From a virus, in the IMG/VR virus record IMGVR_UViG_3300044713_000064, positions 1 to 64,000 of that record: DNA of 64,000 bases; one strand, 5' to 3'. Below the pieces are notes generated by a model. The model was not told where the DNA came from, did no database searches, and saw nothing but the letters and a program-made list of their open reading frames with translations. Below, piece after piece: positions 24,361 through 51,551 of this stretch. Within the stretch, counting starts at the first letter, position 1; every line of letters begins with the position of its first letter. The translations under genes were made by a program, and so were the position numbers.

Positions 24361-25289
24361 CAATACACCTTGGAGCGAGGCTTCTTGCCGAATCGCGCGC
24401 CGGCGATCTGAACCGAAGCATCGTTGCTGTACCCAACGCTTTCAGCATATTTGTTGAGGGCGGTTTCCAGCGCAGCCATCGGGAGGTAGGGGCGGAGCTT
24501 CTCAAGGTCGAGCACCTTGCGATCGGTGATCTCCCGGAATTTCTCCGACGCCATTCCCGAAAGGATTCCGTCATCACTACGGTTCCGCATGATATCCGTC
24601 GCCGTCGCCAAGGTATCAACATACGTGTCCTCAGCCCTCCCGGCCGATACCGTCGCCTCGACGCGGGCCTCTGACAGTGCTTCTGAGGCGGCCTGAGCGG
24701 CCTGGGCGGCTTCCTCTGCCTCCTGCGCCCGAGCGGCTCGGGTCGCGTCCGTCCTGGCGCGCTCGGCCTTCAGACGGGCTTCCTCGGCCGCTGCGGCGGC
24801 AGCGGCGGCCTCCCGCCGGGCCTTGTCCTCGGCCTCCTGCTTCGCCCGAGCGATCTTGGCGGCCTCCTCGGCCTCGCGGCGGCGTCGCTCTTTCTCGGCC
24901 TCGAGCACGGCGGTATCGTATTCGGTCAGAATCCGGTTAAGGCGATCGCCCTCGCCTTCCTTGGCCTTCTTGTCCTTGCGGCCCAGTTTGTCGAGGAGCA
25001 TCCCGAACCAACCGTTCGCGCCGCGCTGACGCTCCAGATGTGGGGCAACTTCGGACTCCCGCACGCCATTGATGCGCTTGTAGGCGTCGCGCATGTCCTT
25101 GATCAGACCGGTGACGACATCACGATTGTCCTTGGTGACGACTTCAATCGGCTCCGATTTCGCGGTGAGCTCCTCGACAGTCTCTTCGAGGTAGGCATAA
25201 TCGATCTTGAGGCGATCAACCTCGTTCTTGGCGAAGTCAACAACTTGGACGTTGTCGCCGATCCCGGCGCGTGGATTTAGATCAGACAT
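24360..25289 (-). CDS. Large coiled-coil protein of the recombination operon
   Basis: 309 aa from ATG 25289, AAGGAACTCCA upstream. N-terminal helical domain (VVDFAKNEVDRLKIDYAYLE, NRDVVTGLIKDMRDAYKRIN), then a long Ala/Glu/Arg coiled coil at about residues 110-220 (AEKERRRREAEEAAKIARAK), and a globular C-terminus (EITDRKVLDLEKLRPYLPM, VQIAGARFGKKPRSKVY). Proteins of this shape accompany ERF-type recombination genes in other phages. Specific function unknown. Confidence 0.6.
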   Translation of the reverse strand: MSDLNPRAGIGDNVQVVDFAKNEVDRLKIDYAYLEETVEELTAKSEPIEVVTKDNRDVVTGLIKDMRDAYKRINGVRESEVAPHLERQRGANGWFGMLLDKLGRKDKKAKEGEGDRLNRILTEYDTAVLEAEKERRRREAEEAAKIARAKQEAEDKARREAAAAAAAAEEARLKAERARTDATRAARAQEAEEAAQAAQAASEALSEARVEATVSAGRAEDTYVDTLATATDIMRNRSDDGILSGMASEKFREITDRKVLDLEKLRPYLPMAALETALNKYAESVGYSNDASVQIAGARFGKKPRSKVY

Positions 25290-30406: not shown

Positions 30407-30770
30407 ATTGTCCACCCATCCGAGGGGACAATGAGCGAATCGACAACTCCAATCTGCGATCTGATCGAGCGGCTGTTGTCCCCCCTGATGTCCCCTCATT
30501 GTCCACCGGGGACACTGGGGACAGTCATTGAAAATGTTCGCCCGATCGAATCCGCAATGATGATGGGATCCACTAGATTTGGTGGTTCGTCGGTGGATAG
30601 ACGCGAGAGAGAGCGCCTCAAAAAGCAGAGATATCGGGCTCGAAAAAATGCTCTGTCCACCGGGGACAGTCCACCGGGGACAAATCCCGACCCTATTCTT
30701 ATTAAGACTCAGGAAGTAATTGATAAAGTAAGAAAGAAAGAATCTGGTGTCCACCATGTCCACGGGGACA
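30407..30770. repeat. Iteron-like TGTCC/GGACA repeats with AT-rich segment: candidate replication origin
   Basis: ATTGTCC (30407) with GGACAAT (30426) around the start codon; TGTCCCC at 30477 and 30489; TTGTCCACCGGGGACA at 30499; GGGGACA at 30517; GTCCACCGGGGACA in tandem at 30655 and 30669; TGTCCAC at 30748; TGTCCACGGGGACA at 30757. About 50 nt rich in A/T (30693-30745) lie between the last two groups. All sit inside a replication-like gene, as lambda ori lies inside gene O. Confidence 0.6.
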
Positions 30771-31168
30771 AACCTGAGATACCGAAAGACGATTGGCCAT
30801 CCGATTTTCTTGATCAGTTCTGGGGGGCATTCCCCCCTTTCCGCCGCCAAGCAAAAGCGAAGGTTGGCCAGAAGCTCGCCAAAATCCGCGCCGCCGGTGC
30901 CGTGACCTGGCAGGTTCTATTTGATGGGGTTCTGAAATTCGCGGCGACGAATCCCGGCGAGTACGCGCCGGCGCCGATGGTGTGGTTGAACGACGGTCGA
31001 TGGGACCGGGAATATGGAACGCAAAAGGGATTCTCCAATGGAAAAGCTCAGGGCTCCTCTACCGACAAAATCGGGTTCTCCGGCCTCGCCGCCAGGATCC
31101 GCTATGGTGATCTCGACGGGGAGTCCCGCCCGGCTCCCGAAGATCTCGAACCTATTAACCGACGTTGA
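30431..31168 (+). CDS. Replication initiation-type protein (O-like)
   Basis: 245 aa; GAGGGGACA precedes ATG 30431. The N-terminal half is basic and low complexity (SSVDRRERERLKKQRYRARK) and is encoded by the repeat-rich DNA. The C-terminal half (DFLDQFWGAFPPFRRQAKAK, FDGVLKFAATNPGEYAPAPM, VWLNDGRWDREYG) is the common end domain of phage replication proteins of the O/DnaT kind. No winged helix is obvious at the N-terminus. The origin-like repeats within the gene support the role. Confidence 0.65.
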   Translation: MSESTTPICDLIERLLSPLMSPHCPPGTLGTVIENVRPIESAMMMGSTRFGGSSVDRRERERLKKQRYRARKNALSTGDSPPGTNPDPILIKTQEVIDKVRKKESGVHHVHGDKPEIPKDDWPSDFLDQFWGAFPPFRRQAKAKVGQKLAKIRAAGAVTWQVLFDGVLKFAATNPGEYAPAPMVWLNDGRWDREYGTQKGFSNGKAQGSSTDKIGFSGLAARIRYGDLDGESRPAPEDLEPINRR

Positions 31169-36451: not shown

Positions 36452-36787
36452 ATGTCCCGCACCAAAGGCTCAAAGAACCGACCCAAACGCCACGTCAACC
36501 CCTTGACAAAACGAGAGGCTGTCGTCGCTCAATCCGGTGTTACCCCACTGGAATACATGCTCCGAATCATGCGGGACCCCCGGGCCTCCAAGGAGCGCCG
36601 CGACGACATGGCCAAGGCCGCAGCCAGGTTCGTGCACCCGATTCTAGGCGCAATAGCCAGCATCCAGGCCCCGCAGGTCATGCCGGATCAGCAGAAGACG
36701 CTCCAGCACGAGGGCAACGTGGTGCAGATCGACGACCCGGTGGCGGCGGCCCGGCTGTACCAGCGAATGATCAAGCAGGTCAGGTAG
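36452..36787 (+). CDS. Terminase small-subunit-like protein
   Basis: 111 aa from ATG 36452. Basic start (SRTKGSKNRPKRHVNP), then GVTPLEYMLRIMRDPRASKE and RDDMAKAAARFVHPIL: this TPLEYML...MAKAAxxxVHP pattern is that of a family found just upstream of large terminase genes in alphaproteobacterial phages. It probably recognises DNA for packaging. It is separated from the large subunit by eight small genes, which is unusual. Confidence 0.6.
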   Translation: MSRTKGSKNRPKRHVNPLTKREAVVAQSGVTPLEYMLRIMRDPRASKERRDDMAKAAARFVHPILGAIASIQAPQVMPDQQKTLQHEGNVVQIDDPVAAARLYQRMIKQVR

Positions 36788-37468: not shown

Positions 37469-37650
37469 TGCTCTACGTCACCCGAGAGCACATCCCCGCG
37501 GGATCGTCGGTCTACGTCAGCGAGATCGACGGGCTTGCTCAGAAGGATTCGCCCGTGTGGGGATTTTATCTTGGCGATGCGGTCGAGGCATTGCGCGAAG
37601 GTTTCCGGGTCGTCGAGCGCGACGGCGAAGTTCGAGAGGATGATGCGTGA
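37468..37650 (+). CDS. Small unknown protein
   Basis: 60 aa from ATG 37468. TREHIPAGSSVYVSEIDGL, SPVWGFYLGDAVEALREGF, VVERDGEVREDDA. Compact, acidic end. Stop overlaps the next start. Confidence 0.55.
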   Translation: MLYVTREHIPAGSSVYVSEIDGLAQKDSPVWGFYLGDAVEALREGFRVVERDGEVREDDA

Positions 37651-38534
37651 TGGACCTTAACCCCTACGACGAGCTCGGCGTGGCGCGCGATGCGACCGAG
37701 GCGGATGTCCGCAAGGCCTATCGCAAGAAGGCCAAGTCGACGCATCCAGACAGCGGGGGAGATCCCGCGGAATGGTCCCGCGTCTGCACATCGCTCGCGG
37801 TCCTGACCGATCCCAAGAAGCGCAAGACCTTCGACGACACCGGCCGCATTGAAGAGGATCGGCCGGACAACGATCGTGCGGCCGCGCTGCAGATCATAGA
37901 AATGCACATGGGCACGATCTGCAACGATTTCATCCAGAGCGGATTCCTGCCCGAGCGCGACCCGCGCCGCATGGACGTCATCAAGGTGATTCGCCACGAG
38001 GTGACATCTGAGATCGCCGAAGCCAAGGTCGGCATCAAGGGCGGCGAAAAGGTCGTCGCGTTCATGCGCGACATGGCGAAGCGATTCACCCAGGCCAAGA
38101 TGGCCGCGGCCGGCGAGCCGGATCCGATCGGCCGCGGCCTCGAGCTGCAGATCCGCAACGCCGAAGAGCAGATCGCCGGCATCCGCGCCAATGTGCGCCA
38201 GCGCGAGTTGGTGCTGACGATCCTGGATGGCTACCGGTTTGAGATGGATCGGCCGCGCGACGAGGCCCGAGCGCGCTCAATTCGCCTTCAACGAGTTTCC
38301 GATTGGCGCCATGAGGTGGTGATGATCGCAATCGGCTCAGCATTATCCGGCGCAGACAAGAGCGCGCTCTACCGGCTTAAGAAGTACGGCGAGCTCAAGA
38401 TTGACGACGAAGGCGTTTTCAGCGTTCCAGGGAAATACTGGTCAATCACCCTCAAGCAGATGGATCGGCTTGAGCATATGGGCCTTTGCAAGATCCAATG
38501 CGTCGGCCAGAGCGTCTTTGCGGTGCCGACATGA
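37650..38534 (+). CDS. J-domain (DnaJ-like) protein with C-terminal extension
   Basis: 294 aa from ATG 37650 (GTG 37647 possible). Residues 1-65 are a J domain: NPYDELGVARDATEADVRKA, YRKKAKSTHPDSGGDP with the HPD motif that stimulates Hsp70 ATPase, then FDDTGRIEE. A helical middle follows (ALQIIEMHMGTICNDFIQSG, VAFMRDMAKRFTQAKMAAAG). The last 80 residues (YRLKKYGELKIDDEGVFSVP, MDRLEHMGLCKIQC) look like a winged-helix fold. It may recruit host DnaK to replication or terminase complexes. There are no zinc or substrate-binding DnaJ domains. Confidence 0.75.
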   Translation: MDLNPYDELGVARDATEADVRKAYRKKAKSTHPDSGGDPAEWSRVCTSLAVLTDPKKRKTFDDTGRIEEDRPDNDRAAALQIIEMHMGTICNDFIQSGFLPERDPRRMDVIKVIRHEVTSEIAEAKVGIKGGEKVVAFMRDMAKRFTQAKMAAAGEPDPIGRGLELQIRNAEEQIAGIRANVRQRELVLTILDGYRFEMDRPRDEARARSIRLQRVSDWRHEVVMIAIGSALSGADKSALYRLKKYGELKIDDEGVFSVPGKYWSITLKQMDRLEHMGLCKIQCVGQSVFAVPT

Positions 38535-39030: not shown

Positions 39031-39356
39031 CGAGATCATTCGTCAGGTCTCGGCGGCAGAACGGCAATCCATGCACCTATTGCGCGCGGCCGATGAGCAC
39101 GGATGTCCCGCTGCTCTACCCGACACGGGATCACGTCGAACCGAGATCCAAGGGCGGCCGCCTTCTGGTTTGGGCATGCTCCACGTGCAACCACGTCAAG
39201 CGGGACATGACCGAAGAGCAGTGGGCGGTGTACCGATTTGAGCATGATTATTGGTGGAGACCGGGCCGGCGCCGAGTGCCTACGAATTGGAGGCCGCACC
39301 ATCATCGCGAAAATGCCGGCTGCCCAAAGTCTTTCGCCGCCGAGGAATCCAAGTGA
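39027..39356 (+). CDS. HNH endonuclease of the packaging module
   Basis: 109 aa from GTG 39027 (GTGA overlap). PCTYCARPMSTD, TRDHVEPRSKGGRLLVWACS, TCNHVKRDMTEEQW: a zinc-bound HNH core with CxxC at both ends and the RDHV/NH residues. HNH proteins next to terminase assist DNA cleavage in packaging in HK97-like phages (gp74). The stop overlaps the terminase start, so they are made together. Confidence 0.85.
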   Translation: MTRSFVRSRRQNGNPCTYCARPMSTDVPLLYPTRDHVEPRSKGGRLLVWACSTCNHVKRDMTEEQWAVYRFEHDYWWRPGRRRVPTNWRPHHHRENAGCPKSFAAEESK

Positions 39357-41044
39357 ACCTCCCCAAGATCGAGTACCAGACCGAGAGCCTCCCGGTTCTG
39401 GCGATGAACTGGAAGCAGCCCGAGTATGCGGCAATCTTCCGGGCGCGGCTCGAGAACCTTGATCGGATCCGAGAGCATCCGGAGATCGTTCCGGAGCTCA
39501 AGGCCTATTACGCCGCCCATCCCGCAGATTTCATTAACGACTTCGGCGTCACGTTCGACCCTCGCCAGGCAGACATCGGACAGCCCACGCTGTTGCCCTT
39601 CATTCTGTTCCCGCGCCAGCGTGAATGGATCGACTGGGTGATGGACCGGTGGAAGAATCGTCGACCTGGCCTGTGCGAAAAGTCCCGCGACATGGGCGTA
39701 TCGTGGTTGGCGCTTTCGCTCTCATGCACCCTGTGCCTATTTCATGATGGAATCGCGATCGGCTTCGGATCCCGGAAGACGGAATACGTTGACCGGATAG
39801 GCACCTTCAAGCCGCTCCTGCCGAAGGGGCGGATGTTCATGGAACACCTGCCCGAGGAGTTCCGTGGCGGGTTCGTCCCCTGGCGCGATGCGCCATACAT
39901 GCGAATCACGTTCCCCGAGACCGGCTCCATCATCGCTGGCGAAGGCGGTGATGACATCGGCCGCGGAGACCGTACGACTCTGTATTTCTTCGACGAGGAA
40001 GCCCACCACCCGCGCCAGGAGCTCGTAGCAGCTGCTCTATCGCAGACGACCAATTGCCAGATCGGCATGAGCTCGGTCCGCGGCATGAACAACCTGTTCG
40101 CGCAGAAGCGATGGGGCGGCAAGATTGACGTCTTCATCTTCGATTGGCGCGAGGATCCGCGCAAGGACGAGGCCTGGTACGAGCGCCAATGCGAGGATCT
40201 GGATCCGGTCATCGTCGCCCAGGAGATCGACCGGGATTATTCGGCCTCGATCCATGGTGTGGTCATCCCAGGCCTATGGGTGCGCGCGGCGATCGACGCC
40301 AAGAAAAAGCTCGGCATCGCGCCGTCCGGGAAGAAGGGCGTTGCGTTCGATGTCGCCGACGAAGGAGACGACAAGAACGCGATCGCGCGCTGCGAGGGAA
40401 CCGAGGTAGTCGAGACTGACGAGTGGAGCGGCAAGGGCGGCGATATCTTCTCGTCGACGGAATACGTCTTCGACGTCTGCGACGAAAACGGGTACACCGA
40501 GTTCCGGTACGATGCCGACGGCATGGGCGCCGACGTCCGCGGCGACGCCAGGGTGATCAACGAGCGGCGGGTCAAGAACAAGGCACGGGTGATTCGGGCG
40601 ATCGGCTATCGCGGCTCGGAAGGGGTCTATGATCCGGAAGGGATCGTAGAGGGCACCATCGGGTCGGAGGGCGACGCCGGCCGCACGAATCAGGACTATT
40701 TCGGGAACCACAAGGCGCAATCATGGTGGTCGTTGCGGAAGCGGTTCCAGCGGACCTATCGCTGGGTCGAGACTGGGGTTGCCTGCGCGCCGGACGACAT
40801 CATCTCGCTGAATTCCGAGAATCCGAACCTGATGAAGTTGGTCGCGGAGCTGAGCCAGGCCACCTACAAGCAAAACGAGGTCGGCAAGATCATCATTGAA
40901 AAGAAGCCGGCCGGCCGGAAGAGCCCGAACCAAGCCGACGCGGTCGTGATCCATTACGCACCGATGGAGCAACCGCCGGTCGAGATCACGATGGACATGC
41001 TGAGGCAGATCGCGCAGGCAGGCGCGCCGCAACGGAGACGGTAA
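39353..41044 (+). CDS. terL: Terminase large subunit
   Basis: 563 aa from GTG 39353 (GTGA overlap with the HNH gene). ATPase: Walker-A-like CEKSRDMGVSW (about 108-118), Walker B LYFFDEEAHH (210-219), coupling region QIGMSSVRGMNN. Nuclease (RNase H-like): acids in VAFDVADEGDDKN (333/336), RYDADGMGAD (387/389) and PNQADAVVIHY near the end. It cuts the concatemer and pumps DNA into proheads through the portal encoded at 43143. Full length for the family. Confidence 0.92.
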   Translation: MNLPKIEYQTESLPVLAMNWKQPEYAAIFRARLENLDRIREHPEIVPELKAYYAAHPADFINDFGVTFDPRQADIGQPTLLPFILFPRQREWIDWVMDRWKNRRPGLCEKSRDMGVSWLALSLSCTLCLFHDGIAIGFGSRKTEYVDRIGTFKPLLPKGRMFMEHLPEEFRGGFVPWRDAPYMRITFPETGSIIAGEGGDDIGRGDRTTLYFFDEEAHHPRQELVAAALSQTTNCQIGMSSVRGMNNLFAQKRWGGKIDVFIFDWREDPRKDEAWYERQCEDLDPVIVAQEIDRDYSASIHGVVIPGLWVRAAIDAKKKLGIAPSGKKGVAFDVADEGDDKNAIARCEGTEVVETDEWSGKGGDIFSSTEYVFDVCDENGYTEFRYDADGMGADVRGDARVINERRVKNKARVIRAIGYRGSEGVYDPEGIVEGTIGSEGDAGRTNQDYFGNHKAQSWWSLRKRFQRTYRWVETGVACAPDDIISLNSENPNLMKLVAELSQATYKQNEVGKIIIEKKPAGRKSPNQADAVVIHYAPMEQPPVEITMDMLRQIAQAGAPQRRR

Positions 41045-41262
41045 TGGGGCGGAAATCTCGCAGGCATTTGAGCGAATCGAATCTGGCTGGGATGATCGAG
41101 AGCTATCGCGCCGGCGAGAAGGTGTCGGTGATCTGCGTTTTGTTCGATGTGGACCAGAAGACGCTGTGGCGGCGGATGCGGCGGGCAGGCGAGCCGGCGC
41201 GGAAATGTGGGAATAGGCCGCGGATTCCTGTGGACACGGGGGACAAATCTCCCTATGTGTAA
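41044..41262 (+). CDS. Small helix-turn-helix protein
   Basis: 72 aa; TAATG overlap with terL. HLSESNLAGMIESYRAGEKV, SVICVLFDVDQKTLWRRMRR: a resolvase/Myb-like helix-turn-helix. It ends VDTGDKSPYV in DNA (GTGGACACGGGGGACA) resembling the origin repeats. Could be a regulator of late genes or a second DNA-binding packaging factor. Confidence 0.6.
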   Translation: MGRKSRRHLSESNLAGMIESYRAGEKVSVICVLFDVDQKTLWRRMRRAGEPARKCGNRPRIPVDTGDKSPYV

Positions 41263-41334
41263 TTCACGCGGGGAGCCAATGTCCGCGGACCTCCATGCTG
41301 GCGGTGGGCCCTCCAAGTCGCCGCTGGCAACGAA

Positions 41335-41371
41335 GGCGGCCGAGAAAGCGCCCCCAGCTCGGCCGCCTTTT
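41335..41371 (+). terminator. Strong intrinsic terminator after the terminase operon
   Basis: GGCGGCCGAG (41335-41344) pairs perfectly with CTCGGCCGCC (41358-41367), 13-nt loop, then TTTT. Flanking AA/TT extend it. It closes the packaging operon. Confidence 0.85.
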
Positions 41372-41400
41372 CGTTTCACGATAAACATTTCCTCCGTCTA

Positions 41401-41560
41401 GGAGCTTACGCGCGGAAGGCAAAAGACGGTGCGACACCTGCATAGTGGTGTGGCTTAGGGAAGGACTGGCGGCCTTCGGGTGCGGCCCAGCGGTGGAGAG
41501 AACCGGTCCCTGCTATTCATTTCGGAGCCAGTATAACGGGGCAAATAAGGGCAATCACAA
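41401..41560 (+). other. Leader with structured element E1 before small genes
   Basis: 160 nt without a supported gene. GCCTTCGG (41472), GAGAGAACCGG (41496), and TATAACGGGGC (41532) are shared in order with 42019-42180. GC-rich arms (GGACTGGCGGCC...GCGGCCCAG) could fold. TATAAC may be a -10 box for the gene at 41561, though no -35 is clear. Confidence 0.4.
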
Positions 41561-41734
41561 ATGAACGTCGGAGAGTTGAGAGAGGCGCTAAAGGGCGTAA
41601 CCGATGACACGCCGATCGCTTTTGGGACCGACTGGATTGGAGAGTGGAAGAACGCTACTGAGGCTAAGGTCCGATGGGTCGTTCCTGGGCGGGATGGCTG
41701 CGCTTGGGCCAAAACTCGGAAGGGAACCAGATGA
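41561..41734 (+). CDS. Small unknown protein
   Basis: 57 aa; AAGGGCAATCACAA precedes ATG 41561. NVGELREALKGVTDDTPIAF, then WIGEWKNATEAKVRWVVPGR. The opening is like the short phage proteins with MTVGELIxxLxxxDPD. Stop overlaps the next start (ATGA). Confidence 0.6.
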   Translation: MNVGELREALKGVTDDTPIAFGTDWIGEWKNATEAKVRWVVPGRDGCAWAKTRKGTR

Positions 41735-42018
41735 GTTATTCGATTTCAGCGACGGCTGACACCAAGGAAGACGCCGCCCGGCAGATCAAGGAGCGGTTCG
41801 ACGCCATCGTGGTATCGCAGCCGAGCCATGCCGCGGACAAGGAAGCGGCGCTCGCTGCGGCCGGCGCCTTCATCGACCTCCTTGCGGATCCGCCTCAGGG
41901 CCATGAGGTCTACGTGAGCATGTACGGCTCGCTGAGTTGGCATCACGAGACCCCAGAAGAGTTCATCGCCGCCGGCTGCTCTGTCAGCGTCTCGCTGCGC
42001 AAAGTCGGCGGAATCTGA
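41731..42018 (+). CDS. Conserved small protein
   Basis: 95 aa; GAAGGGAACCAG precedes ATG 41731. MSYSISATADTKEDAARQIK, AIVVSQPSHAADKEAALAAA, EVYVSMYGSLSWHHE, FIAAGCSVSVSLRK. A two-layer alpha/beta fold seems likely; homologues are common in phages. Function unknown. Confidence 0.65.
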   Translation: MSYSISATADTKEDAARQIKERFDAIVVSQPSHAADKEAALAAAGAFIDLLADPPQGHEVYVSMYGSLSWHHETPEEFIAAGCSVSVSLRKVGGI

Positions 42019-42362
42019 ATAGGTTGGCGGCCGGGGACGCCCGGCTAGACGGTACTGAGGGTCCGGGTCCACGCTGGTGTAGTGAAGCGGGTAGCCTTCG
42101 GTGTTCGTGACGCCAACGTAAGGTTCTGACGGCGGCGTGAGAGAATCGCCCGCCAGCATCCCGGACTATAACGGGGTTCAGTCGCCCGCTCTGGTCACAG
42201 CGCACGGACTGTCGGGAAAATCATGTCCGTTAAGCCGGTTTGAGACCGGCCCGTCAGGAAGCGGCCCCGGTACGCCAGCCCGCCGGGGCCGTTGCTTTTG
42301 GCGGCGTGCCATGGTTGATTGCGTTTTCAAACTTGAAATCAAATCAAGTGAGGATCGGGGTC
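42019..42362 (+). other. Non-coding stretch with element E2, hairpins and a terminator
   Basis: 344 nt. 42019-42180 holds element E2, matching E1 in GCCTTCGG (42090), GAGAGAATCG (42140) and TATAACGGGG (42167). GCCGGTTTGAGACCGGC (about 42234-42250) folds into a hairpin, followed by the terminator at 42262. A minus-strand frame covers part of it but has no ribosome site. Confidence 0.45.
42262..42298 (+). terminator. Intrinsic terminator
   Basis: CGGCCCCGG (42262-42270) with CCGGGGCCG (42283-42291), 12-nt loop, followed by TTGCTTTT. Ends the transcript of the two small genes at 41561-42018. Confidence 0.75.
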
Positions 42363-42590
42363 ATGGCCTTTATCAACATCGACGCGCCTGGCAACGGCTT
42401 CAACCGGCACGCCGTCCGGACCATCCAGAAGCGCGCCGGCGCGGAGGACCGCAAGGCCGCTGCGGAGGCCCGCCGCGCCCGCCGGAACGCCACGCGCGCA
42501 CCTGAGCCCGTCTCTCGCCCCATCTGGTCGACCGCCTGTGACAGCATGGCGGATCTGGACCTGCCGCCGACCGCGGTCACCGCCCGCTAA
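42363..42590 (+). CDS. Small basic protein
   Basis: 75 aa; GAGGATCGGGGTC precedes ATG 42363. FINIDAPGNGFNRHAVRTIQ, RAGAEDRKAAAEARRARRNA, IWSTACDSMADLDLPP. A basic helix suits nucleic-acid binding. Lies between two terminator hairpins. Function unknown. Confidence 0.55.
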   Translation: MAFINIDAPGNGFNRHAVRTIQKRAGAEDRKAAAEARRARRNATRAPEPVSRPIWSTACDSMADLDLPPTAVTAR

Positions 42591-42631
42591 CGCGGCTTGA
42601 ATCCATCCGACTTTGCAGATAGAAAATGAAA

Positions 42632-42661
42632 GCCCGGCTCGAGTTTGCGACTCGGCCGGGC
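42632..42661 (-). terminator. Terminator hairpin for the minus-strand gene 42701-42943
   Basis: GCCCGGC-t-CGAGT, loop, ACTCG-GCCGGGC: 12 bp with one bulge. On the minus strand TTTCATTTTC follows, 40 nt after the stop of the gene at 42701. Its presence supports that gene. Confidence 0.6.
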
Positions 42662-42700
42662 AAATCCGCAGGCATCCTTGGCAGGGTTTGCGGAAGTTGG

Positions 42701-42943
42701 TCAGATCTTTGAATAGACGCAAGCATGCTCTTTTTCAAGATCAAAATGTTCAAAGATGTTCAAAAAGTTCAAAGATGCCTGCCAGCCCGGCTGCCGCCGA
42801 TTGAGCCTCGGATCATCCTTCATCGCAAAGCGAGCCTCGCCGTAGAACGGAGCGAGGGAGTAACGACGAGCGGGAACTTCACCTTCCGACCGTGATCGAT
42901 TGCCGCCAAGGGGATCGATTGGAAACTGAGGCAAGTACGGCAT
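42701..42943 (-). CDS. Putative small Arg/Pro-rich protein on the opposite strand
   Basis: 80 aa; ACAGGAAACAAAA precedes ATG 42943. PYLPQFPIDPLGGNRSRSEG, PARRYSLAPFYGEARFAMKD, LNFLNIFEHFDLEKE. The LNFLNIFEHF part is encoded by the antisense of GTTCAAA repeats. A terminator follows. Isolated minus gene between terminase and portal modules; function unknown. Confidence 0.45.
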   Translation of the reverse strand: MPYLPQFPIDPLGGNRSRSEGEVPARRYSLAPFYGEARFAMKDDPRLNRRQPGWQASLNFLNIFEHFDLEKEHACVYSKI

Positions 42944-43275
42944 TTTTGTTTCCTGTTTGCGGGAGAGTGATTCGCAAGCCCGGGCGGCTGGCCCCCGATA
43001 TCATGGGCACCTCAGCTATACTCGCTGCCACCCTCGGGGTGGAATGCTTGGTACCTCAACCGCATGGCATAGATGCCGGGTCTTGCGGAAGGACGGCTAT
43101 GCCTTTAACAGTTCAAAGAATGTTCAAAGCCGGGGCGATTCGATGGCGCGTGGCGGATTTAGGAAAAACAGCGGGCCGAAGCTTGATGCAGATGGAAAGG
43201 CATTGAAGCCGTACAAGCGTCGCGATGGTGAAAGTTCAGAGAGTTCAAACGGGGAAAGTTCAAACGTTGTTCAAA
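42748..43275 (+). repeat. Array of GTTCAAA words between terminase and portal
   Basis: GTTCAAA at 42748, 42758, 42767, 43111, 43122, 43243, 43258 and 43269, plus GTTCAGA at 43234, all in the same direction. A 7-mer should occur by chance far less than once in 528 bp on one strand. They group as 3+2+4. Position suggests a packaging (pac) site, a binding site for a small DNA-binding protein, or a regulatory array over the portal start. Confidence 0.65.
42944..43142 (+). other. Leader region before the portal gene
   Basis: 199 nt. The portal frame is open through it from 42957, but the residues are not portal-like and the first well-placed ATG is 43143. It holds GC-rich arms (AAGCCCGGGCGG, CCACCCTCGGGGTGG hairpin near 43030) and two GTTCAAA words. 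No clear promoter. Confidence 0.4.
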
Positions 43276-46091
43276 TGCGCGCGGCCAAGGCTGTGCCGGC
43301 CGAGTCAAAGGCCGAAGATGGCCCCGCGATCGATCCTCGCGCATGGGCGATGATGCTCCCCGAGATCGAGGAGATCAGCCGGCGGTACTCGTCCAAGAAA
43401 GAGCGGACATCGGCCGACAACCCGTTCCAGCTGCCGGCGTTCCCCAAGGCCGCGGTTCCAACCGATCCCAAGCTTCAGATGGCGCAGGACAGCGCCTTGA
43501 CGGCCAATCTGGGGTTTGCCTCGAATCAGTGGCTCGCCGGCGGGGATGGCGGATTCGCCGGCGAAGGCTTCATGTTCTTGGGCTACACCTATCTCTCGGA
43601 ACTCGCGCTGCGCCCCGAGTACCGCGTCATGGCCGAGACGATCGCCGATGATGCCACCCGGAAGTGGATTGATTTCGACGTCGTGGGCGATGAGAAGAAG
43701 CAGCAAGAGGACCGCGAGAAGGACCCGGCCGGATACGATGAGCGCATGGCCGATCCGGCCGAGCGCAAGAAGCGCGTGGATGGCGCCGGCAAGACCGACA
43801 AGGTCAAGGCGCTGCAGGACGACCAGCTGCGCCTGGCGGTCAGGGACCGCTATTACGAGCAGGCGCGCAACGGCGGATTCTTCGGCCGCTCGCATCTCTT
43901 CCACGACATCCGAACCAATTCCAAAGACAGCGGAGACGACCCGAATCTTGAGGAACTCAAATCATCGATCGGCGACGGCCGTGATGCGGCGAGCAAAAGC
44001 AAAGTTCCGATCGGCTCATTCAAGGCGCTGAAGACTATCGAGCCCATGTGGGCCTATCCGCTGATGTACAACGCTGCGTTCCCATGGCGCCAGGACTGGT
44101 ACAATCCGCAAGTCTGGTACGTGAACGGTCAGGAGTTTCACGGCTCGCGGCTGCTCACGTTCATCCCACATCCGGTGCCGGACATGCTCAAGCCGGCTTA
44201 TGCGTTCGGCGGGCTGAGCCTGACGCAGATGGCCAAGCCATACGTCGATCGCTGGATCACGACCGTCTCGAGCGTCAACGCGCTGATCCACTCGTTCTCG
44301 GTCATGGTGTTAGCCACCGATCTGTCGACGCTGATGCAGCCGGGCAACATGGCCCCGCTGATGGCGCGCGTGGCGATGTTCAATATGTTCCGCGACAACC
44401 AGGGCACGTTCGTCATCAACAACAAGACGGAAGATTTCAAGAATGTCAGCGCTTCGCTGGCCGGCCTGCACGAGCTCCAAGCTCAAGCTCAGGAGCACAT
44501 GGCTTCGATCAACCGCATTCCGCTTGTCAAATTCACTGGGATTCAACCATCAGGCTTGAACGCATCGAGTGAAGGTGAGATCGAAGTTTATGACGACACG
44601 ATCGGAGCGTATCAGGCGCGCGTGCTCGATGGCAACCTTCGCACGACGATAAATTTCGAACAACTGTCGTTATGGGGCGAGATCGATCCTGAGATCACGC
44701 ATCGATGGCAGGAACTCCGCCCGATGACCCAGGCCGAGCGCGGCCAGAAGCAGAAGGATGATGCAGACACCCGTCAGAAGTACGTCGACATGGGGTCTTT
44801 CTCGCCGCAGGAAATCCGCAAGATCGCGATAGAGGATCCGGAATTGCCGTTTGGTGGGCTGGATCCAGACGACGCTCCGGAGCCGCCGGCCGAAGAGGGC
44901 CTGCTCGGGCCAGGCGCCGGCTCTGCGGCGACCGAGTTCGAGAAGGAAGCCAGCGGCCAAGGCGGCGAATCAGATCAGGGAGGCGGGGCTAGCGATGCCG
45001 TCCTCCCTTTCCTCGCGGGCGACGCTGAGTTCGTGGAATCGGAGCACCCGCGCGCACCGGACGGCAAGTTCGGAAGTGGCGGCGGAACCTCAGCGCCGGC
45101 CGGGCATCCCCATGGGAGCACGCCGAAATTCCACGCAATGGTCACGAAGCACAAGATCCCAGAGGCGGCCAGTGACGTCGCTAAGTCGGCGCGCGCTCTG
45201 AAACAAAAGCAGGGCACCGTTGCCAAATACGCCAAGTACATCGCGGTGATCAATGAGAAGGTGAACGAGATCACCAATTCGCAGTCTGATTCGGACCAAC
45301 TCATTTCGCTGCAAGGGATCGCCGAAGCTCCGACACCCGACGAAATTAACGATTACGCGCGCGGGTTGGTCCGGGAGGGCAAGGTCAAGGACGTCCTGGG
45401 ATTCGAAGACGACAAGGAGGGATTCAAGGACTTGATGCAGGAGCTCAGCCCGCAAGAGAAGCAAGACCTGATGATGCTCAAGGGGCGGCTGGAAGCGCTT
45501 TACCCGAAGGCGTTTGAAGCCGCGAAAGAAACCCGGAAGCTCGCGCTCGAGACTGAGAAGGCGATGAAGGTCATGCGGAAGCGGATTGAGAAATCACCGA
45601 TGTACGATGATTTCGAAGATCAGGACGACGTCGAGCATCTCTATGCGGATCGGATGGCGATGATCTCTGAGGATAACCCGGAAGACCTCGACGATCTGAT
45701 CGGGATCACGAGCTATCTCGCTGATGAGCCAATATCGGCCGAATATGCCGAGATTCTCCAGGGTCAGAAGGATGACATCGATGAATCGGCCGCCGAGCGG
45801 AGACGGTTCGACGCTCTCTCAGAAGAGGAGCAGGCGAAGGAATTGGCGGAAAAGGCCGAGAAAGAGCGGCTTGATAAGGCGATGGAGGACAAGCATCGCG
45901 AATTGACGATTGAGATCGCCATGCGGGACGGCTGGAAACCGGAATTCAATGACATCGGCAGCGTGACGAATCGGCCTGAGAGCGTGAAACAGGTCGCGTC
46001 ATCGCCGACCAGCATCGGGAAAATGTACCGGTTCCTTCAGAAATCAGGCGTTGAGATCCCCGAGGCCGGGAAGCGGTTCCTGGATTGGTGA
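43143..46091 (+). CDS. Portal protein (DUF1073-like) with N- and C-terminal extensions
   Basis: 982 aa from ATG 43143. It begins MARGGFRKNSGPK, a basic motif usual at the start of small terminases, followed by Ser-rich linker. Residues about 95-620 are portal-like (SELALRPEYRVMAETIADDA, TRKWIDFDVVGDE, FFGRSHLFHDIR, QLSLWGEIDPEITHRWQEL). At about 632, ESEHPRAPDGKFGSGGG opens a 350-residue acidic, helical C-terminus (EVKxIAEAPTPDEINDYARG-type helices, AEKAEKERLDKAMEDKHREL) that may act as an internal scaffold. Usual DUF1073 portals are about half this length. It forms the DNA channel and docks the terminase. Confidence 0.8.
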   Translation: MARGGFRKNSGPKLDADGKALKPYKRRDGESSESSNGESSNVVQMRAAKAVPAESKAEDGPAIDPRAWAMMLPEIEEISRRYSSKKERTSADNPFQLPAFPKAAVPTDPKLQMAQDSALTANLGFASNQWLAGGDGGFAGEGFMFLGYTYLSELALRPEYRVMAETIADDATRKWIDFDVVGDEKKQQEDREKDPAGYDERMADPAERKKRVDGAGKTDKVKALQDDQLRLAVRDRYYEQARNGGFFGRSHLFHDIRTNSKDSGDDPNLEELKSSIGDGRDAASKSKVPIGSFKALKTIEPMWAYPLMYNAAFPWRQDWYNPQVWYVNGQEFHGSRLLTFIPHPVPDMLKPAYAFGGLSLTQMAKPYVDRWITTVSSVNALIHSFSVMVLATDLSTLMQPGNMAPLMARVAMFNMFRDNQGTFVINNKTEDFKNVSASLAGLHELQAQAQEHMASINRIPLVKFTGIQPSGLNASSEGEIEVYDDTIGAYQARVLDGNLRTTINFEQLSLWGEIDPEITHRWQELRPMTQAERGQKQKDDADTRQKYVDMGSFSPQEIRKIAIEDPELPFGGLDPDDAPEPPAEEGLLGPGAGSAATEFEKEASGQGGESDQGGGASDAVLPFLAGDAEFVESEHPRAPDGKFGSGGGTSAPAGHPHGSTPKFHAMVTKHKIPEAASDVAKSARALKQKQGTVAKYAKYIAVINEKVNEITNSQSDSDQLISLQGIAEAPTPDEINDYARGLVREGKVKDVLGFEDDKEGFKDLMQELSPQEKQDLMMLKGRLEALYPKAFEAAKETRKLALETEKAMKVMRKRIEKSPMYDDFEDQDDVEHLYADRMAMISEDNPEDLDDLIGITSYLADEPISAEYAEILQGQKDDIDESAAERRRFDALSEEEQAKELAEKAEKERLDKAMEDKHRELTIEIAMRDGWKPEFNDIGSVTNRPESVKQVASSPTSIGKMYRFLQKSGVEIPEAGKRFLDW

Positions 46092-50279: not shown

Positions 50280-51551
50280 GTGATAGAGGCGATGATGCTC
50301 TCACTCGCCCCGAACGCTGCCATCCCCGCCGGCCTCCGCCGCAAGACCGCTTTTGATGCATCTGGGATCACAAAACATGCGGCCGGCGTGCTGTTTGTTG
50401 CACCGGACGGCGATATCCTGCTGTTGCGGCGCACCGGGACGCCGGGGAAAGACAATTTCGTGGGTCATTGGTCGCTGCCAGGCGGCGGCGTCGAGGAGGG
50501 CGAGACACCAGAGGCCGGCGCCGCGCGCGAGGCCAAGGAAGAGATGGGCGTCGACACGGACCCCAAGAGCTTCAAGGTCCTCGATCAGAAGGTGACCCCG
50601 ACCGGGATGGCGTTCCACACCTTCGCCCAATCAGTAGCGAAGAAATTCTGGCCGCAACTGAACGACGAGCACAACGGCGCTGGCTGGTTTCCGCTGAGCG
50701 AGCTGCCGCGGCCGATCCACCCCGCAGTCGAGTCGATGCTTAAGAACAAGCTTGGCGATGACCTGGGCGGCGCGCGCGACGGGCTGGTTGCATGGTCGAA
50801 ACTTGCCGATGAAGAGGCCGAACGCGGCCGTGCGGCAGACGCTTGCCCGACCTGCGGCGGGACTGGTGAGCTCGCAGGCCCTGGCTGCAAGTGCGAGGAC
50901 TGCGGCGGGGCCGGAAAGAAGCTCGGCGCGACTGATTCGGCGTTCGTCATCGCCATGGACCGGGACAGCGTCAGATCCTTCGACCGTGATGGCCGCATGC
51001 GGGTTGCCATTGCCAATCTGAGCAAAGAGCAGATCAGGCCCTATGTCGGTCGAGAAATTCCCGGCTGGGATGACGCTACCCAGACCCACAAGCTGGGATT
51101 GGATCCGGACAAAATCTACAATCTCTATTGCCCGGGCGAAGAATTGGAAAAAGCGGCAGAAACCTTCAATGGGATTCAACTTCTCAAGAAGCACACGCCG
51201 GTGAATGCAGAGGATCATAAAAAAAACGACATCATTGGGACGACCGGGACGAATGCGAAATTCAATTCTCCGTTCTTGCAAAACAGCCTGGTTGTTTGGA
51301 CGCAAGAAGGAATCGACCTCATCGAATCCGAGGAGATGAAGGAATTGAGTTGCGGGTATTTTTATGTACCGTTGATGACCCCGGGCGTTTTCAAGGGAGA
51401 GCCTTTCGACGGAATCATGACGCAACTGTCCGGCAACCATTTAACGATTGTCGGCGATGGTCGAGCTGGATCGGAATGCCAAGTTGAGGATTCTGCGGTC
51501 GAATTGCAGTGGGCCGCGATCGAGCGGGCAATGATGGACATGACTACATGA
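50280..51551 (+). CDS. Fusion: Nudix hydrolase + zinc finger + DUF2213
   Basis: 423 aa from GTG 50280 (ATG 50292 possible). Residues 30-165 are a Nudix domain: the box GGVEEGETPEAGAAREAKEE, from Gly69, fits G-x5-E-x7-REUxEExGU with all acids present. CPTCGGTGEL (189-198) and CKCEDCGGAG (203-212) make a DnaJ-type zinc finger. Residues 220-423 resemble DUF2213 (VAIANLSKEQIRPYVGREIP, LLKKHTPVNAEDHKKNDIIG, EEMKELSCGYFYVP), a phage family just before scaffold and capsid genes, likely a prohead maturation protein. The triple fusion is unusual. Confidence 0.75.
   Translation: MIEAMMLSLAPNAAIPAGLRRKTAFDASGITKHAAGVLFVAPDGDILLLRRTGTPGKDNFVGHWSLPGGGVEEGETPEAGAAREAKEEMGVDTDPKSFKVLDQKVTPTGMAFHTFAQSVAKKFWPQLNDEHNGAGWFPLSELPRPIHPAVESMLKNKLGDDLGGARDGLVAWSKLADEEAERGRAADACPTCGGTGELAGPGCKCEDCGGAGKKLGATDSAFVIAMDRDSVRSFDRDGRMRVAIANLSKEQIRPYVGREIPGWDDATQTHKLGLDPDKIYNLYCPGEELEKAAETFNGIQLLKKHTPVNAEDHKKNDIIGTTGTNAKFNSPFLQNSLVVWTQEGIDLIESEEMKELSCGYFYVPLMTPGVFKGEPFDGIMTQLSGNHLTIVGDGRAGSECQVEDSAVELQWAAIERAMMDMTT

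Follow-up and report, generated by a model that had tools for sequence, protein, structure and literature searches.

Introduction

In bacteriophage P1, the packaging-initiation (pac) site holds groups of a short word in one region and lies in the pacA gene. The stoperators of mycobacteriophage L5 are short asymmetric words in one orientation, and the words may differ between related phages. The pac sites of SPP1 and SF6 are built of several sets of short direct repeats in non-coding DNA and in the first part of a head or packaging gene, and the repeats are not the same in the two phages (PMC4737164, PMC6316719). Here we analyze an array of the word GTTCAAA located between the gene for the terminase large subunit (TerL, 39353–41044) and the portal gene in a stretch of 64,000 nucleotides, referred to as the window, from the soil phage in IMG/VR virus record IMGVR_UViG_3300044713_000064. 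Comparison with relatives shows that the array belongs to an accessory segment that was swapped recently and is carried by only two known phages, in which the words may have multiplied by slippage and short-homology copying.

The grouped short word is a likeness to P1 pac, but the position and the dispensability of the array do not fit that site. The locus differs from the L5 stoperators in having one cluster only, no known repressor and no words in the putative promoter interval. Like SPP1/SF6 pac, the array comprises multiple sets of short direct repeats that run from non-coding DNA into the beginning of a head or packaging gene. By contrast, SPP1 pac overlaps the gene for the small terminase, and both phages conserve it as a site. 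The segment described here overlaps the portal gene instead, is dispensable, and is separated by 6 kilobases (kb) from the gene for a small terminase-like (TerS-like) protein (36452–36787). With the moron-like cassettes of mosaic phages the locus shares the form of an extra segment with its own antisense open reading frame (ORF) and hairpin, its presence or absence between close relatives, and its exchange as a block. It differs from them in lacking a recognisable cargo protein, in providing the leader and N-terminus of the portal, and in having word arrays at the borders of its core.

Results and Discussion

Structure and Statistics of the Array

The array consists of eight exact copies of GTTCAAA and one GTTCAGA variant in three groups (3 + 2 + 4) that span 42748–43275 in a single orientation (Table 1), and a scan of the window confirmed the preliminary description on all these points. 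On both strands of the window the word occurs 14 times, against 6.15 expected and a maximum of 13 in 100 shuffles, and 8 of the 14 copies fall inside 528 base pairs (bp). Among 200 third-order Markov windows of 64 kb, GTTCAAA never exceeded three copies per 528 bp and any AT-rich 7-mer reached at most six; the cluster is well beyond chance for any AT-rich word. The spacings are irregular (8, 9, 10, 11 and 15 bp). Groups 1 and 2 have GTTCAAAG(A)ATGTTCAAA in common, and in group 3 the unit GGNGAAAGTTCA is repeated at 24 bp.

The words in the portal N-terminus had been read as Ser-Ser repeats, which applies to three of them (43234, 43243 and 43258, all in one frame) but not to that at 43269, which lies in another frame and encodes Val-Gln. 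The use of two reading frames, together with copies in both coding and non-coding DNA, upholds the earlier view that the sameness of the words resides at the DNA level and not at the protein level.

An Exchangeable Portal-Leader Cassette

Portal searches of viral and bacterial collections yielded 131 loci, 113 of them non-redundant, and two phages of the same genus, G003 (contig 3300021088_000008) and G001 (3300043778_000063), were compared in full. Besides the window, a single record among the 113 loci, G003, contains the array, with one copy more than the window; the same record was the only one recovered when viral contigs were scanned for the group 2 sequence. The preliminary description had made its proposals depend on conservation of the words in related phages, which is largely absent. 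The core between groups 1 and 2 is carried by G003 and by a further phage, G005 (portal 64%), in which it lacks GTTCAAA. G001, whose TerS-like and TerL proteins are 97% and 96% identical to those of the window, has neither the segment nor the words, and holds a different, unrelated small gene in their place.

The window and G003 diverge by 0.6% over 42593–42747, by 2.5% over 42748–43275 and by 8.4% over the next 225 bases (43276–43500), the change falling immediately past the last word. Leftward from 42593, the two have no close common sequence until 41528. The low divergence inside, the step beyond it and the loss of similarity leftward show that phages have exchanged a block of about 0.7 kb whose end lies just past the last word. 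As in accessory cassettes, the segment is present in one and absent from another of two close relatives and its edges are sharp; as possible cargo, it contains an antisense ORF of 80 or 50 amino acids, which is broken in G005 and has no relatives in Pfam or PHROGs. The entire interval between TerL and portal (41044–43143 in the window), which in matching relatives measures between about 0.2 kb (L007) and 5 kb (L009) and differs in content without relation, is a hot spot for the exchange of genes.

In both the window and G005 the core has direct repeats on either side. A transposon with target-site duplication was considered and rejected, as these repeats differ in length and the border words are themselves part of the homology between phages. 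Since the homology extends to these words, the cores of the window and of G005 probably derive from one ancestral insertion. The core was not found in the phage or plasmid records searched, and gave only short matches in about 800 bacterial genomes from the family and order (Rhizobiales, sampled) of a Bradyrhizobium that holds a related portal. One bacterial contig (L283:1490–1580), which has an IS630-like transposase nearby, carries a 45-bp match of 89% to the promoter-like part of the G005 core. In 120 other viral contigs, GTTCAAA triplets are mostly low-complexity repeats or belong to unrelated genes.

The Array as a Packaging or Replication Site

The location between terminase and portal genes had suggested a pac or other packaging-initiation site. 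Such a site is expected wherever the same small terminase initiates packaging, and in G001 the whole segment is swapped for an unrelated small gene despite the near-identical terminase proteins; for this reason it is very unlikely that packaging starts at the array. The distance from the TerS-like gene points the same way, a position in or next to that gene being usual for pac although not an absolute requirement. In SPP1 and SF6 the repeats differ, yet the site taken as one unit is 80% conserved (PMC4737164), whereas here the segment is missing entirely. The near relative without the segment thus corrects a plausible but unsupported packaging-site reading.

Iterons of a replication origin would account for direct repeats in a locally AT-richer stretch, but we consider this very unlikely and the least probable of the readings. 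Iterons are expected near an initiator gene or a skew extremum; the cumulative GC-skew minimum lies at 25187 (25.2 kb), GC at the array is not extreme, and the segment is missing from G001. A better candidate is a second word array, of TGTCCAC and GGGGACA (30409–30764), situated in and before an initiation-protein-like gene (30431–31168) that matches PHROG replication initiation proteins (phrog_270). This second array occupies the leader and the linker-coding part of the gene. Homologous or similar genes in G001 and G008 contain TGTCCC/GGGACA instead, and G003 lacks this part; the second array is likely an origin whose word has changed.

Origin of the Words

The reading that we favor, and hold only tentatively, is that the words arose by slippage and short-homology copying inside a mobile portal-leader cassette. 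The small cassette, which lies just upstream of the portal gene and reaches into it, contains, besides the array, a hairpin and an antisense mini-ORF, a conserved leader that includes a Shine-Dalgarno sequence and the start of a mini-ORF, and the variable N-terminal linker of the portal. The words would multiply by replication slippage and short-homology copying where coding constraint is low, and would travel with the cassette upon exchange between phages. Template switching among nearby repeats may contribute, possibly aided by the recombination proteins ERF and YqaJ, both of which the phage encodes.

Group 2 of G003 has three copies, the additional one being an exact 8-bp tandem duplication of ATGTTCAA that is absent from the window, which points to replication slippage. 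Group 1 is itself an imperfect tandem repeat. The words also lie at sites of low constraint, namely past the antisense stop in G003, in a mini-ORF of unconserved sequence and in the linker of the portal, which is variable among relatives. We infer that the separated groups stem from local copying instead of selection for binding sites, and that the words play no part in packaging.

Several observations weigh against the slippage reading. Slippage accounts for growth within a group, and leaves unexplained the return of one word in one orientation at distances of 340 and 115 bp. All 56 word bases are identical in the window and G003, where the expectation is itself only about one change. In G005 a different word, ATCAAGAT, forms the strongest 8-mer cluster of the whole record on both strands, with five copies at 1328–1704 (at most four in 60 simulations), and it occupies the same two core borders; a single factor that recognizes both sites could underlie such a paired change. 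Across the G005 core, AGATCAAGATG forms a direct repeat, and the leader of this phage contains a perfect 12-bp hairpin of its word. A perfect 12-bp inverted repeat (GATCAAGATGAT / ATCATCTTGATC) lies at L006:1678–1712, between the leader start and the portal start.

The words of the window and of G005 may be variants of each other (TTCAAAGATG, ATCAAGATG), and the border words appear to change in concert, being the same within each phage and different between phages, a pattern of two independent cases that was noticed after the alignment had been viewed. Either gene conversion or a common reader would give matched border words. The main rival to slippage is a cassette-specific array of binding sites, through which a phage DNA-binding protein would control expression of the portal gene or the cassette, with word and protein changing together; we regard it as unlikely, but as the strongest of the alternatives. 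It agrees with words in one orientation that exceed chance, and with the finding that every core-bearing phage has its strongest AT-rich word cluster at the core, where the words differ (GTTCAAA or ATCAAGAT), while none of four complete or long core-less relatives has such a cluster there. The regulator array of the preliminary description survives in this form, weakened by the irregular spacing, by the small number of independent cases and by the placement of the words, none of which lies in the interval 42943–43098, where putative divergent promoters would lead one to expect an operator.

Three proteins had been proposed as binders of the array. The TerS-like product of gene 36452 is also present in the array-less G001, and the product of 41044 is only 39% identical in G003, the other array-bearing phage. 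The 36834 product alone follows the array: it has a basic C-terminus, is 98% identical in G003, and is lacking in G001 and G005. It has no recognised DNA-binding domain, and its co-occurrence with the array in two related phages offers weak evidence for a role as reader.

A more specific proposal, which we deem improbable, is a phage-specific border word with a co-evolving reader, resembling self-recognition, combined with tuning of portal translation by the copy number of group 2. The leader mini-ORF overlaps the portal start in the window, running past it, and ends 4 bases before the portal ATG in G003, the two states being separated by one 8-bp unit and one base change. Because gain or loss of the unit decides where the mini-ORF ends, copy number could tune portal translation. 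A conserved start with an unconserved sequence has the look of a translational coupler, and G001 and G008 have, in place of the mini-ORF, a complete small gene that stops where the portal begins.

Antisense pairing was also weighed. A leftward transcript containing UUUGAAC would pair with GUUCAAA in the portal leader and tune its translation, paired words changing together so that they still match. The predicted duplex is stronger than those of shuffled leaders in the window (−34.9 vs. −25.0, standard deviation (sd) 4.0) and in G003 (−37.5 vs. −26.1, sd 3.3); the sequence common to groups 1 and 2 and the hairpin downstream of the antisense ORF are in line with it. G005, however, lacks the hairpin, and its duplex does not surpass those of shuffles (−31.0 vs. 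−27.6, sd 4.2); scans of the locus found neither promoter nor terminator consensus (including at the hairpin itself), and complementarity is an automatic outcome of repeats. We therefore give this explanation little credence.

Features of the Locus

The features of the locus are collected in Table 1. The overlap of the array with the antisense gene, reported previously, exists in the window and does not extend to G003, where a stop at codon 51 closes the ORF ahead of the words (50 codons, against 80 in the window), so that group 1 is non-coding there, nor to G005.

Table 1. Coordinates of the word array and associated features in the window.
Feature	Position	Strand	Evidence or remark
GTTCAAA, exact copies	42748, 42758, 42767; 43111, 43122; 43243, 43258, 43269	+	Sequence scan
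GTTCAGA, variant	43234	+	Sequence scan
Word group 1, three GTTCAAA	42748..42773	+	Imperfect tandem repeat (19-bp unit x1.9, 94%)
Word group 2, two GTTCAAA	43111..43128	+	
Word group 3, GTTCAGA and three GTTCAAA	43234..43275	+	Portal variable N-terminal linker (ESSESSNGESSNVVQ)
Exchangeable cassette, holding the whole array	42593..43280 (right end about 43280)	+	Divergence step vs. G003; missing in G001
Strong GC-rich hairpin lacking a T-run; may terminate leftward transcription	42632..42661	-	Fold z-score -2.9
Antisense mini-ORF, 80 amino acids	42701..42943	-	Stop at codon 51 in G003; broken in G005
Core between groups 1 and 2	42774..43110	+	74.6% DNA identity with G005 over 42753-43107
Strongly conserved leader block with Shine-Dalgarno and ATG at its end (GGAAGGACGGCTATG)	43045..43101	+	100% in G003, 96.5% in G005
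Leader mini-ORF	43099..43206	+	35 codons in window, 15 in G003, 13 in G005; start kept, sequence not
Portal protein (Phage_portal_3)	43143..46091	+	PF06381, E 2.8e-57; phrog_146

Further explanations of the words or the core were rejected. A structured RNA in the core matched no Rfam family, and the core folds no better than shuffles. GTTCAAA resembles the T-loop of tRNA, yet no tRNA was found of which it could be a T-arm remnant. As a general leader motif, TTCAAA is not enriched before genes, and TCAA(A)GATG is only slightly enriched before portals. An antisense zinc-ribbon protein was suggested by one frame of G005, but the degenerate pattern matched that record alone, and the matches in bacteria, 26 bp long, fell in unrelated coding DNA. 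A link to the N6/N4 methyltransferase gene of the phage was dismissed, as the gene is present in the array-less G001 and absent from the array-bearing G003. A literature search on the word GTTCAAA returned nothing relevant.

The window belongs to a record of 71,585 bases with a 127-bp terminal repeat, and the map is therefore very probably circular and complete. A DnaJ-domain protein is encoded between the TerS-like and TerL genes (37647–38534), and a NUDIX domain is fused to DUF2213 in one head-region protein (50280–51551). Among the portal relatives, the portal gene is broken near residue 400 by about 0.8–0.9 kb in L013:10590–11458 and L008:3961–4751, breaks that resemble intron or intein interruptions, and TerL of L016 is similarly broken near residue 190. 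Long CGCCGCC-type repeats lie upstream of the portal in L005:2534–2787 and L009:2302–2523.

Implications

If proteins read such words, the locus would be a compact example of recognition sites that change in step within one locus. A pattern that might be sought elsewhere is a short accessory core with border words that match within each phage yet vary from one phage to another.
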